Source: Arthrobacter sp. PAMC25564
Lineage (GTDB): Bacteria > Actinomycetota > Actinomycetes > Actinomycetales > Micrococcaceae
Assembly (NCBI RefSeq): GCF_004798705.1
Contig: NZ_CP039290.1
Coordinates: 1 to 64,000, forward strand
Length of the DNA: 64,000 nucleotides
Direction of reading: 5' to 3'
Shown here: positions 6,050 to 9,241 of the stretch, piece by piece
Position numbering within the stretch: the stretch's first letter is position 1
Layout of the letters: each line of letters opens with the position of its first letter
Program-made: the position numbers and the translations under genes
The notes under the pieces: model-generated
What the model saw: only the letters and a program-made list of their open reading frames with translations
Database searches by the model: none
What the model was told of the DNA's origin: nothing

Positions 6050-6310
6050 CTACAGTCGCGTTTATTGTCGGTTGTGCGGCGTTTTAACCGGGCTTCCGGC
6101 TCCTGTCGTGTTGATCGTTGGCGGTGGGTGATGATATTTGTGTGGCTGCGGTGCAGGACCGGACCGAGGGGCTCCAGAGGAACGGTGAGCTGGCCGCGCC
6201 GCGGTTCGCCCGGTCAGAGCCCCGGAGAACGCTGTGGCCTATGTGCGGCGGCAAACGCGTTGCTGGGGTGCTACGGCGTCAAGTCCCGCGAGATGGCTCG
6301 TTGTGTCGAA
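6050..6310 (+). mobile_element. Remnant of IS701-like element: left end and broken transposase start
   Basis: Bases 6050-6112 match, on the opposite strand, bases 26318-26382 with about 85% identity and one small gap, including GCGTTTTAA and GGGCTTCCGGCTCCTGTCG. From 6118 a short frame reads LAAPRFARSEPRR, which I recognise as typical of the N-terminal part of IS701-family transposases (usually followed by AYVRGLL); the remainder is spread over other frames (VAYVRR, NALLGCYGVKSREMA). CTAG lies at 6044-6047, and IS701 elements favour YTAR targets. The family call rests on memory. Confidence 0.5.
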
Positions 6311-6598
6311 TTCAGTGAGGCCCACCAAAGCGGGGCTTGGATGGACACGCAATAGGATCCGGAGGCACAGAACGCCGCCTTCCGAATCCCAGGAGATACG
6401 GGATAACCCTGAAGTCTGGCGGGACTCGTGAAACGAACCCAGGCTGCCGAAGTCCCCGTACATCGGAATCCGAGTGCTTTGCTGTCTTTCCGGCAACCCT
6501 GCACACCACCATGCGTCTGGCACACGGTTCCTGCGAATCGCCGGACCTCCTGTCACTGCAGCTGACCACAACGTCCAACGCAGCTGCGGGATTGAGAT
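6311..6598. other. Intergenic stretch without a recognisable gene
   Basis: Several short frames exist on both strands, but none has a recognisable domain, a ribosome site or consistent codon bias. It is probably debris continuing from the IS remnant. Confidence 0.5.
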
Positions 6599-6901
6599 TT
6601 ACGAGGCCAATCGCTCACGTGTGTTGCGACCAGGGCCTGCCGATTCAACGCCACGTTCGGGGTGGTTGATCTCGGCCCACACCACATCGAGGGAGAGCCC
6701 GAGGACATCGGCGATCGCAGCGATCGTCGGGAAGGCAGGGGTCGCTACGCGGCCCGTCTCGATCTTCCGGAGGGTCTCCGGTGAGACACGTGCATTGAGC
6801 GCGATGTCGAGCATCGAGCGTTCTCCCCTGGCGCGACGCAACAGGGCACCAAGGCGCTGTCCGCGCTCGACCTCTTCGAATGTGAGCGGCAATCTGACCA
6901 T
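6599..6901 (-). CDS. XRE-family transcriptional regulator
   Basis: A 100-residue protein that is almost entirely one helix-turn-helix domain. The segment from LGALLRRARGERSMLDIALN through SPETLRKIETGRVATPAFPT to AAIADVLGLSLD is the Cro/C1 pattern (about residues 17-73). The ATG at 6901 lies only seven bases after TATAAT on the minus strand, so the mRNA is probably leaderless. The gene diverges from a methionine aminopeptidase across 43 bases that contain a perfect 10+10 palindrome. It most likely controls itself and its neighbour. No effector domain is present. Confidence 0.88.
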   Translation of the reverse strand: MVRLPLTFEEVERGQRLGALLRRARGERSMLDIALNARVSPETLRKIETGRVATPAFPTIAAIADVLGLSLDVVWAEINHPERGVESAGPGRNTRERLAS

Positions 6902-6908
6902 GACTCCG

Positions 6909-6938
6909 ATTATACCGGGATAATATGGCCGGTATAAT
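6909..6938. promoter_or_regulatory. Palindromic divergent promoter/operator of the XRE-map pair
   Basis: Perfect inverted repeat ATTATACCGG (6909-6918) and CCGGTATAAT (6929-6938) separated by ten bases. Each arm holds a consensus TATAAT reading outward: on the plus strand six bases before the map ATG, on the minus strand seven bases before the regulator ATG. No good -35 box is visible. It looks like one operator serving two overlapping, opposing leaderless promoters. Confidence 0.8.
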
Positions 6939-6944
6939 TATTGG

Positions 6945-7727
6945 ATGATCGAGATCCTGAACCCCACCGAACTAACCCGAGCAAAAGAGACAGGCATCCT
7001 GGTTGCAGACATCTTGCAGACATTGAGGAACCGCAGCACGGTCGGCACGAACCTCCTGGACATCGACCGGTGGGCCCAGACCATGATCGTCGAGGCCGGA
7101 GCGCTGTCCTGTTACGTCGATTACGCGCCATCCTTCGGACGCGGGCCCTTCGGCCACTACATCTGCACGGCCGTCAACGACGCCGTGCTCCACGGACTGC
7201 CATACGACTACACGCTTGCCGACGGCGACTTGCTGGCCCTCGACCTCGCCGTCTCCAAGCGGGGAGTCGCTGCAGACTCCGCCATCAGCATCATCGTGGG
7301 CGACTCCAAGCCCCCGGAGAGCGTCGCGATGATCAGCGCGACCGAGCGCGCATTGAGCGCAGGGATAGCCGCCGCCGGACCCGGGGCCCGCATCGGCCAC
7401 ATCTCCCATGCCATCGGCTCGGTCCTCAGCGAGGCGGGGTACCCGATCAACGCCGAGTTCGGGGGCCACGGCATCGGATCGACGATGCACCAGGACCCCC
7501 ACGTTCCAAACACCGGCCGGCCGGGACGGGGATACAAACTGCGCCCCGGGCAACTGCTCGCGCTGGAGCCATGGGTCATGGCCGACACCGCTGAACTCAT
7601 CATCGACGCCGACGGGTGGACCCTCCGAAGTGCGACAGGCTGCCGGACAGCACACAGTGAGCACAGGATCGCCATCACCGACGACGGAGCCGAAATCCTC
7701 ACCATGCAGGCCGAGGCGCACCCGTGA
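6945..7727 (+). CDS. map: Methionine aminopeptidase type I (probable extra copy)
   Basis: Removes the initiator methionine from nascent proteins. The 260-residue length is normal for a type I enzyme with no N-terminal extension. The metal ligands are all in place: D100, D111, H175, E208 and E239, with catalytic H83 (NDAVLHGLP), spaced as in the E. coli enzyme. The motifs are LALDLAVSKRGVAADSA, GGHGIGSTMHQDPHVPN and AHSEHRIAIT. The ATG at 6945 has no ribosome site and sits six bases from TATAAT, implying a leaderless message. Housekeeping map genes usually lie near secY/infA, so this XRE-paired copy is probably a second one. A regulated backup or resistance role is conjecture. Confidence 0.92.
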   Translation: MIEILNPTELTRAKETGILVADILQTLRNRSTVGTNLLDIDRWAQTMIVEAGALSCYVDYAPSFGRGPFGHYICTAVNDAVLHGLPYDYTLADGDLLALDLAVSKRGVAADSAISIIVGDSKPPESVAMISATERALSAGIAAAGPGARIGHISHAIGSVLSEAGYPINAEFGGHGIGSTMHQDPHVPNTGRPGRGYKLRPGQLLALEPWVMADTAELIIDADGWTLRSATGCRTAHSEHRIAITDDGAEILTMQAEAHP

Positions 7728-7814: not shown

Positions 7815-8290
7815 CCACAGGGTGAATAGCCGGGCCGCTGCATGGGTGGACCACCACCGAGCAACTCACCCCCGACAGCTTCCGCTGGGACTGGCCGATC
7901 TCCCCGGTCCCGGTTGCTTTCGCGCTCGGCGCGGCCGCGCTCTTCGCGTTCGTGCTGGTCGAGCGGTCCAGGGCGCGCGCCCGCAAACCGGTGCTGCTCG
8001 ACCTGACGCTGCTGGACATCCGCAGCTTCCGCTACGGCAGCATCGCGGCCCTGGTGGTGGCGCTGGGCAAATTCGGTATGCTCTTCGCACTGCCGCTGTT
8101 CCTGCGGGGCGCTCTCGGCTACACGGCGCTGGACACGGGACTCCTGATCCTGTCCCTGGCCGTTGGCACCTTCCTGATCTCAGGGGTTCAGCCCAGCTCA
8201 CCCGTCGACTCGGCGGTCGCGGCGTCGTGCGCGCGGGCCTGTTCCTCGAGGCCGTCGCCATCACCGGGCTGGGCACCCCGCCATACCCCC
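7815..8290 (+). pseudogene. Fragment of DHA2-type MFS efflux pump, frameshifted
   Basis: One frame reads FRWDWPISPVPVAFALGAAA and continues through PVLLDLTLLDIRSFRYGS to LRGALGYTALDTGLLILSLA, which is the middle of an EmrB/QacA-type transporter. The match stops near 8185 and resumes in another frame as LTRRLGGRGVVRAGLFLEAV and AITGLGTP. Both ends of the gene are missing. This is a decayed fragment of about 150 codons and cannot make a working pump. Confidence 0.7.
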
Positions 8291-8473
8291 AGCGGGTCCT
8301 CCTGACCTCCGTACGGACGGGACAGAGGTTCTCCCATCGGGTCGACCACTGCATGCCGGCTCGGGCCCAGTCCGCTGGACCTCGGCGGCAACTGCGCCCG
8401 CGTTTTCTACCTCGCCCGCTCCTCTTGGCGGGTTCCGGGATTTCGTCGGGCATGCCGGGTGTGGGGCTTGATG
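8291..8473. other. Gap between two gene fragments, nothing recognised
   Basis: No supported gene. The minus-strand frame here has no known motif. Confidence 0.4.
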
Positions 8474-8790
8474 CTAGATGGATTGGCGGTATCCGAAGAA
8501 TTCGTGGTCGTTGTTGTATCCGCCTTCGCCGCCGCCGATGTGGGAGAAGTCTTTGACGAATTCGATGCCTTTGATCCATTTGACGAGTTTGAAGCCGAGC
8601 TGGACTTCGTTGCGCAGACGCAGCGGTGCGCCGTGTCCGTAGGTCAGCGGCGCGTTGTTCATGTCGTAGGCGAGCATGGTGAGGTGGTAGCTCATCTGTT
8701 CGATCGGCTGCGCGTCGTAGTAGATGCCGCCGTCGGATCCTTCGGCGAAGGAGCACCCGCGGCGCCACCCCGTATTGCGCAGGGGCAGAC
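8474..8790 (-). pseudogene. C-terminal fragment of a molybdopterin-dependent oxidoreductase
   Basis: The frame reads GGIYYDAQPIEQMSYHLTML, then LAYDMNNAPLTYGHGAPLRL and ends FSHIGGGEGGYNNDHEFFGY. This is the end of the oxidoreductase molybdopterin-binding domain of sulfite-oxidase-like enzymes. The N-terminal two thirds, including the cofactor cysteine region, are absent, and upstream sequence does not continue the family. It should be non-functional. Confidence 0.72.
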
Positions 8791-9241
8791 CCGGCCAAGG
8801 AGTCATCGACTACGGTGTTCGCTTCAGTTGAGAGTTCCCCCCGGAAGCTGGCCGGCGTTCTCGGACCTGTGGCGGAGAGCGGACCGGGAACCGTCCCGGT
8901 TGTCCTGATTATCCCGGTTGTCCTGATTATCGTCACGTGCCACGATGTACCTTCGATCGTTGATACCCGGTCGGCTTCCAGTGGTCGACGGACTGCGGAC
9001 TATATACGCAACCGTAGGGGCAACTGGCCGTCCGTGGTTGGTTTCGGCGTCTTCCTTAATGTCCGGCTGTCGTGGATACCCGGGCGCGGCTGATGGATCA
9101 TGACGCGCAGCCGTTCACCGGGCATGGCTGGCCAAGGAGGCTCTGGAGTCGCTCCGGAATGAGCACGGCTGGAGCCAACAAGCCCCGAACTTCCTGGTCC
9201 GGAATAACCACTGATTGCCTGGAACCGCAGCGCTGCCGGCG
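8791..9241. other. Gap with an 18-base tandem duplication, no gene
   Basis: No supported gene. TCCCGGTTGTCCTGATTA occurs twice head to tail at 8894-8911 and 8912-8929. ATATACGCAACCG at 9003 resembles the ACGCAA half-sites of the betaine island. Confidence 0.5.
8894..8929. repeat. 18-base direct tandem repeat, two copies
   Basis: Two exact, abutting copies of an 18-base unit that lies upstream of the broken molybdopterin gene; probably a recent slippage duplication. Confidence 0.85.

Follow-up and report, generated by a model that had tools for sequence, protein, structure and literature searches.

A methionine aminopeptidase gene facing an XRE-family regulator

Why should a gene for a methionine aminopeptidase (MetAP) share its promoter region with a gene for a small regulator? 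This is the question raised by a divergent gene pair in the window, by which we mean the whole 64,000 nt stretch of DNA that was analysed. It matters because removal of the N-terminal methionine is essential and because no dedicated transcriptional regulator of a MetAP paralogue was found in the literature searched, which combined MetAP with XRE, divergent repressor, Streptomyces HTH or leaderless. One of the papers found names mapA among the genes of the secY operon. The features of the locus are as follows.

6599..6901, minus strand: XRE-family regulator, 100 aa, ATG at 6901
6945..7727, plus strand: type I methionine aminopeptidase (Map1 type), 260 aa, ATG from 6945
6909..6938, no strand assigned: perfect 10+10 inverted repeat with a 10 nt spacer in the window sequence
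6933..6938, plus strand: predicted -10 box of map, TATAAT, 6 nt before the Map ATG
6909..6914 (read 6914-6909), minus strand: predicted -10 box of the XRE gene, TATAAT, 7 nt before the XRE ATG
6915..6944, plus strand: conserved putative operator/promoter with the direct repeats CCGGGATAATATGG and CCGGTATAATTATTGG, from column counts over 106 loci
6944..6945, plus strand: junction lacking the leader that 97 of 106 loci carry (at least 17 nt, mode 20 nt)

When the coordinates were re-read, the arrangement reported by the first-pass annotation proved correct: the gap between the two ATGs is 43 nt (6902-6944), the inverted repeat is perfect (left arm ATTATACCGG at 6909-6918, spacer at 6919-6928, right arm CCGGTATAAT at 6929-6938), and the TATAAT boxes lie 6 and 7 nt from the start codons. 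This geometry also supports the overlapping divergent promoters proposed there, and we infer from the spacing that the two are too close for simultaneous use. By eye, the map promoter has no obvious -35 element. A search for perfect 10 nt arms with a spacer of at most 12 nt gave 23 register hits, at 10 separate places, in the 64 kb window, whereas four sequences simulated with a Markov-1 model gave 1, 0, 5 and 1. A repeat of this kind is uncommon in the window, not unique, and alone is modest evidence; we take conservation of the intergenic motif among related loci as strong evidence, which weighs more than the repeat itself.

The pairing recurs across actinobacterial genomes

An XRE gene was found upstream and divergent at 68 of 80 Map relatives. 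Among 396 evenly sampled genomes of the phylum, 35 carried XRE homologues, 37 in all, and 34 of the 37 homologues had a divergent Map gene 32-104 bp away. This search for divergent pairs, suggested with the original description of the locus, bears out the conjecture of a self-contained XRE-map unit. Starting from Map, the association is less strict: among 14 sampled genomes with a Map of at least 71% identity an XRE was adjacent in seven and not adjacent in the other seven.

After removal of 12 duplicates, the collection comprised 149 loci, 130 with an XRE, in three subgroups: group 1, the window's type (119 loci); group 2 (20 loci, 17 in one genus and 3 in Streptomyces, with map 44-49% identical to the window's); and group 3 (10 loci, map 54-60% identical). 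Both genes were also present at all 29 motif loci examined besides the window (L150-L178), though these were found through the operator, and groups 2 and 3 through the XRE, so that the pairing rates are not independent evidence. One XRE comparison covered 67 of the 80 loci plus the window, leaving out 12 loci without an XRE match and L055, whose match begins beyond residue 1; XRE genes with a broken frame were retained. Frame-broken XRE genes lie beside map at L010, L015 and L055, and the L010 and L055 genomes have a second XRE facing another map. Arthrobacter sp. ok362 carries two copies of the unit (L006 and L017), both with a zero-length map leader.

The first-pass annotation had named map alone, without palindrome and regulator, as the case that would speak against it, and this case does occur. 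Nine of the 19 group-1 loci without an adjacent XRE have no operator either, and the other ten keep the operator only (at L054 a degenerate half). Since operator-less, XRE-less Map relatives exist, Map can live without the pair. An XRE was present elsewhere in the genome for 8 of the 10 operator-bearing Maps versus 0 of the 9 operator-less Maps that lack an adjacent XRE (one-sided Fisher test by hand, about 6e-4; 1.2e-4 with L054 counted as operator-less, 8/9 versus 0/10), an association confounded by taxonomy because Streptomyces-like genomes often have their own XRE. L075 keeps the operator, but searches of its genome detected no XRE, either with the window's XRE as query (1e-12) or with a group-2 XRE (1e-8, run without a positive control).

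The conserved element is a direct repeat

The palindrome had been proposed as the element driving both genes, a role that comparison did not sustain. Perfect inverted-repeat arms reached 10 nt in the window only (1 of 106 group-1 loci), 9 nt at three loci and at most 8 nt at 102, ruling out the palindrome as the conserved operator. What is conserved instead is a direct repeat: by column counts the core TACCGGKATARTATGGCCGGKATAGTTATTGG is nearly fixed among the 106 loci, and the two 14-bp units match each other at 7 or more of 14 positions in 104 of them. The window's palindrome is a local embellishment of this conserved direct-repeat promoter. As far as sequence can tell, a conserved operator-like element common to regulator and target lies over both promoters.

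The motif was found in 34 of 197 genomes of the family, one copy each, and a reversed-pattern control gave no match among the results listed for these 197 genomes. The window's genome contains a single copy at up to three mismatches; a wider regulon was rejected on this count, which looser sites would escape.

Group 3 carries GGTAT-N4-ATACC-like palindromes at 10 of 10 loci (one mismatch allowed), and L139, L142, L144, L145 and L149 have two copies of the 14-bp palindrome. These differ from the CCGG repeats of the window's group; the regulator type is the same.

The regulator mRNA is probably leaderless throughout, the map mRNA at a minority of loci

A TANNNT box stands 6-7 nt before the XRE start codon at 126 of 130 loci; in shuffled controls, TANNNT at 5-8 nt occurred at a mean of 6% and at most 12%. 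The four exceptions are L010, L055, L093 and L097, and by reading, a start one codon further upstream would fit the spacing at L093 and L097. A box of this type at this spacing usually marks leaderless genes in actinobacteria (excerpts of PMC3160421 and PMC8079986), and leaderless transcripts account for about 17% of primary starts in S. lividans (excerpt of PMC8079986). The XRE mRNA is probably leaderless family-wide. In the window, both start codons have TANNNT at about 6-7 nt, and transcription is predicted to start at or next to 6901 for the XRE gene and at or next to 6945 for map.

The earlier proposal that both mRNAs are leaderless holds for the window, by TANNNT spacing, but not for map in general, where it applies to 9 of 106 loci. 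The gap from TATTGG to the map start codon is 0 nt at four loci, 1 nt at five and at least 17 nt at 97, and gaps of 2-16 nt are absent from all 106 loci. The empty range in this bimodal distribution would be expected if the transcript begins immediately downstream of TATTGG and can be translated either with no leader at all or with one long enough to accommodate a ribosome site. In a loose word test that carried no chance control, 95 of the 97 long leaders contained a tetramer or pentamer resembling a Shine-Dalgarno sequence. In group 2, the map gap after TATTGG is 1 nt at 17 of 20 loci and 28-32 nt at three; intergenic gaps go down to 32 bp, and there only 7 bp separate the predicted -10 boxes, and neither gene seems to have a leader.

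The zero-gap class consists of the window, L006, L009 and L017, all Arthrobacter. L005 and L007 have promoters nearly identical to the window's, yet keep a 20 nt leader with AGAAAGG. With the customary leader of some 20 nt missing, the map mRNA of the window is probably leaderless. The leaderless map state, as predicted from spacing, recurs outside the window, with at least six changes between leadered and leaderless forms on a Map tree in which many branches are weak, and the double leaderlessness of the window would be partly a local change. At L005, L008, L011, L023, L050 and L068, the 20 nt leader opens with an ATG at the predicted transcription start and can be read from there as a frame of 7 codons, the TGA of which overlaps the start codon of map; this frame is possibly a leaderless mini-ORF coupled to map. 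The unit offers a natural experiment on leaderless translation, in which the same promoter and coding start are separated by a leader of 0-1 or at least 17 nt, making start-site selection and translation directly comparable between leadered and leaderless forms. Nothing links the unit to leaderless translation in general.

Map is one of four Map-like proteins in the genome

Map scores 204.3 bits against TIGR00500, above the curated cutoff of 171.35. The metal ligands D100, D111, H175, E208 and E239 are all present, as the initial reading had stated, and alignment confirmed this, the five being invariant in 152 of 152 Maps (three of them paralogues from the window's genome). These features point to a type I MetAP with intact catalytic residues, and aminopeptidase activity is predicted.

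The genome encodes three further Map-like M24 proteins, 47, 34 and 31% identical to the window's Map, giving four in total. The description of Map as a second copy was right that it is an extra one, but it has three other Map-like proteins beside it rather than one. The 34% copy was found directly behind secY and adk, in the region proposed for such a search, and this secY-adk-map arrangement identifies it as the housekeeping mapA.

Within residues 61-68, Map has a 6-residue insertion in the presumed substrate-pocket region, a stretch that forms the pocket in E. coli MetAP. All 130 Maps with a linked XRE have the insertion, and so do all 19 Maps of the set without one; it is absent from mapA and from the 31% copy. 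Because it also occurs in Maps without an XRE and in the 47% paralogue, it marks this type of Map and is not tied to the regulator. Beside that paralogue (L101, 6359-7519; genome 2240760-2241524) no XRE relative was detected, the genome search matching the window's XRE alone, and no operator-like sequence was seen in the 110 nt upstream.

The regulator has conserved termini

The XRE protein scores above cutoff for HTH_31 (PF13560, 37.1 versus 27) and HTH_3 (PF01381, 31.2 versus 23), and no second XRE was found in the window's genome at 1e-3. It has a five-helix HTH preceded by a conserved MVRxPL arm and followed by a variable linker, of low confidence in a structure prediction based on 30 chosen sequences, and a conserved C-terminal RERLAS tail. 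The N-terminus reads MVR in 124 of 130 proteins and VVR, from a GTG start, in four; the remaining two, L015 and L055, are frame-broken and entered the set in a different frame; read from its ATG, L015 too begins with MVR. All 30 aligned XREs share V2, R3, P5 and L6, and residues 2-3 would precede helix 1 according to the predicted structure. Outside the window's group the Val2 codons differ, so the constraint acts on the protein.

In group 1, a table of 59 of the 68 XREs gave S in 51, A in 48 and L in 47 of 59 for the last three residues, with varied codons; the XREs of groups 2 and 3 end otherwise, with A, V, S or G last in most cases. Conservation of the tail in spite of the variable linker before it suggests that the terminus is recognised, and a role as protease signal is conjecture. 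ClgR and PopR, which have a similar fold, are ClpP substrates (excerpt of PMC9765437).

The unit has spread horizontally

Maps 83-89% identical to the window's were found in 18 genomes of other genera, in which the best mapA match is 48-58%; for comparison, mapA is 90-91% identical in two Arthrobacter genomes. A Map relative is present in 24 plasmid records, 19 of them at 80% or more, and both plasmid copies inspected have the operator. On the Map tree, which has 69 weak inner branches out of 145 and puts the window in no well-supported small clade, an Arthrobacter copy groups with one from Streptomyces (L012, L038), for example, and a Streptosporangium copy with one from Cryobacterium (L036, L063), each with moderate support. 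By these comparisons, the XRE-map unit spreads horizontally and is widespread in actinobacteria. A phage origin was rejected, as viral contigs contained no relative of Map and phage records gave no match to the XRE at 1e-6.

No conserved third gene was found, the largest cluster other than XRE and map reaching 6 of 81 neighbourhoods by a crude ORF clustering that uses GC3 and can miss genes. The mobile debris that the first-pass annotation saw beside the pair was not confirmed: the ORFs at 6065-6352, 6239-6571 and 7952-8302 match no Pfam family. Downstream of map, 8474-8806 on the minus strand encodes a molybdopterin-oxidoreductase domain fragment.

A candidate switch for a backup aminopeptidase

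The XRE-map unit is real, widespread and mobile, and it is not described in the literature searched. We think it fairly probable that the two genes, spread together by horizontal transfer, form a switch in which the XRE regulates itself and controls a specialised backup MetAP. The compact promoter region would be shared by a small XRE resembling ClgR and a divergent type I MetAP whose pocket region is remodelled, and an XRE dimer would most likely bind the CCGG-centred repeats over both promoters, repressing map and its own gene. Loss or inactivation of the XRE would release Map from a low level, and the released Map could then act as a backup MetAP when the housekeeping MetAPs fall short or are blocked. 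An XRE that represses itself from a site over both promoters is the most economical account. Activation is possible: since map has no clear -35 element and carries G in place of T at the first -10 position at 44 of 106 loci, the XRE could be an activator.

The horizontal spread, the carriage on plasmids and the insertion in the pocket region of Map would also suit resistance by target replacement, in which the unit supplies an inhibitor-insensitive MetAP induced on need. Natural MetAP inhibitors exist, for example the bengamides (excerpt of PMC6022970). However, no conserved biosynthetic or efflux neighbour was found among 81 neighbourhoods, and the literature on MetAP self-resistance gene clusters, in the excerpts considered, mostly concerns fungi. 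We regard this explanation as unlikely.

The conserved N-terminus raises the idea that the XRE senses MetAP activity: Met-Val-Arg, lying in a presumed DNA-contacting arm, would be a MetAP substrate, such that the protein binds once its methionine is removed and map is made while it is unprocessed. Valine is a permitted but poor MetAP substrate. The idea is consistent with MVR or VVR opening 128 of 130 XREs, the other two being frame-broken, with Val codons that vary outside the window's group, placing the constraint on the protein, and with the predicted position of residues 2-3 before helix 1. Invariance of V2 and R3 is, however, equally expected of a DNA-contacting arm; no other small residue replaces Val in the 128 readable paired copies, which processing alone would not require; and the XRE remnant or gene beside the plasmid copy L180 would, by reading, start Met-Ala. 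Such a sensor seems quite unlikely, and we are yet more doubtful of a cell-wide gauge of N-terminal methionine removal, in which the repressor of the spare MetAP is itself a MetAP-class substrate through its Met-Val-Arg and its -LAS tail sets its lifetime. If the gauge were true, the level of repressor still carrying its methionine would indicate whether MetAP activity matches demand.

Mobility as a unit of two genes, the fold neighbours C.BclI, C.Esp1396I and HipB, and a weak HipB-type match below cutoff (TIGR03070, 21.3 versus a curated 71.65) recall an establishment or addiction unit of the restriction-modification kind, in which the XRE would time or restrain a harmful Map after transfer. 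Against this, nine Map relatives have no detected XRE and no aligned Map has lost a metal ligand. Cells thus seem to tolerate Map without control, and we consider such a unit improbable. That two ordinary genes with constitutive promoters are adjacent by chance is hardly credible, for although divergent XRE genes are common and leaderless transcripts make up the share quoted above, pairing and operator are conserved across genera and families and three subgroups with different operators all keep the pairing.

Comparison with known systems

The nearest solved relative of the XRE in the proposed backup switch is PDB 2ofy, a putative XRE-family regulator of Rhodococcus sp. with no assigned function, whose C-terminus is shorter than that of the window's XRE; 2OFY is named in one paper, and a literature search for RHA1_ro04071, presumably its gene name, gave no match. 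ClgR-type proteins and restriction-modification controllers follow among the structural matches, and the best 50 include no lambda entry. By sequence, the match to ClgR (3f51) has E 0.065, and in structural alignments the ClgR and PopR regulators of Clp protease genes are 24-31% identical to the XRE. ClgR and PopR are called activators (excerpt of PMC9765437), and the target of the XRE here would be a MetAP. Compared with the controller (C) proteins of restriction-modification systems, the XRE has a housekeeping-type enzyme as its partner instead, and no restriction or methylase gene was seen as a conserved neighbour in the crude ORF clusters of 81 neighbourhoods. The mapA beside secY and adk is, like the window's Map, a type I MetAP with the same five ligands, but it lies directly behind those genes and is without the 6-residue pocket-region insertion that the window's Map has.
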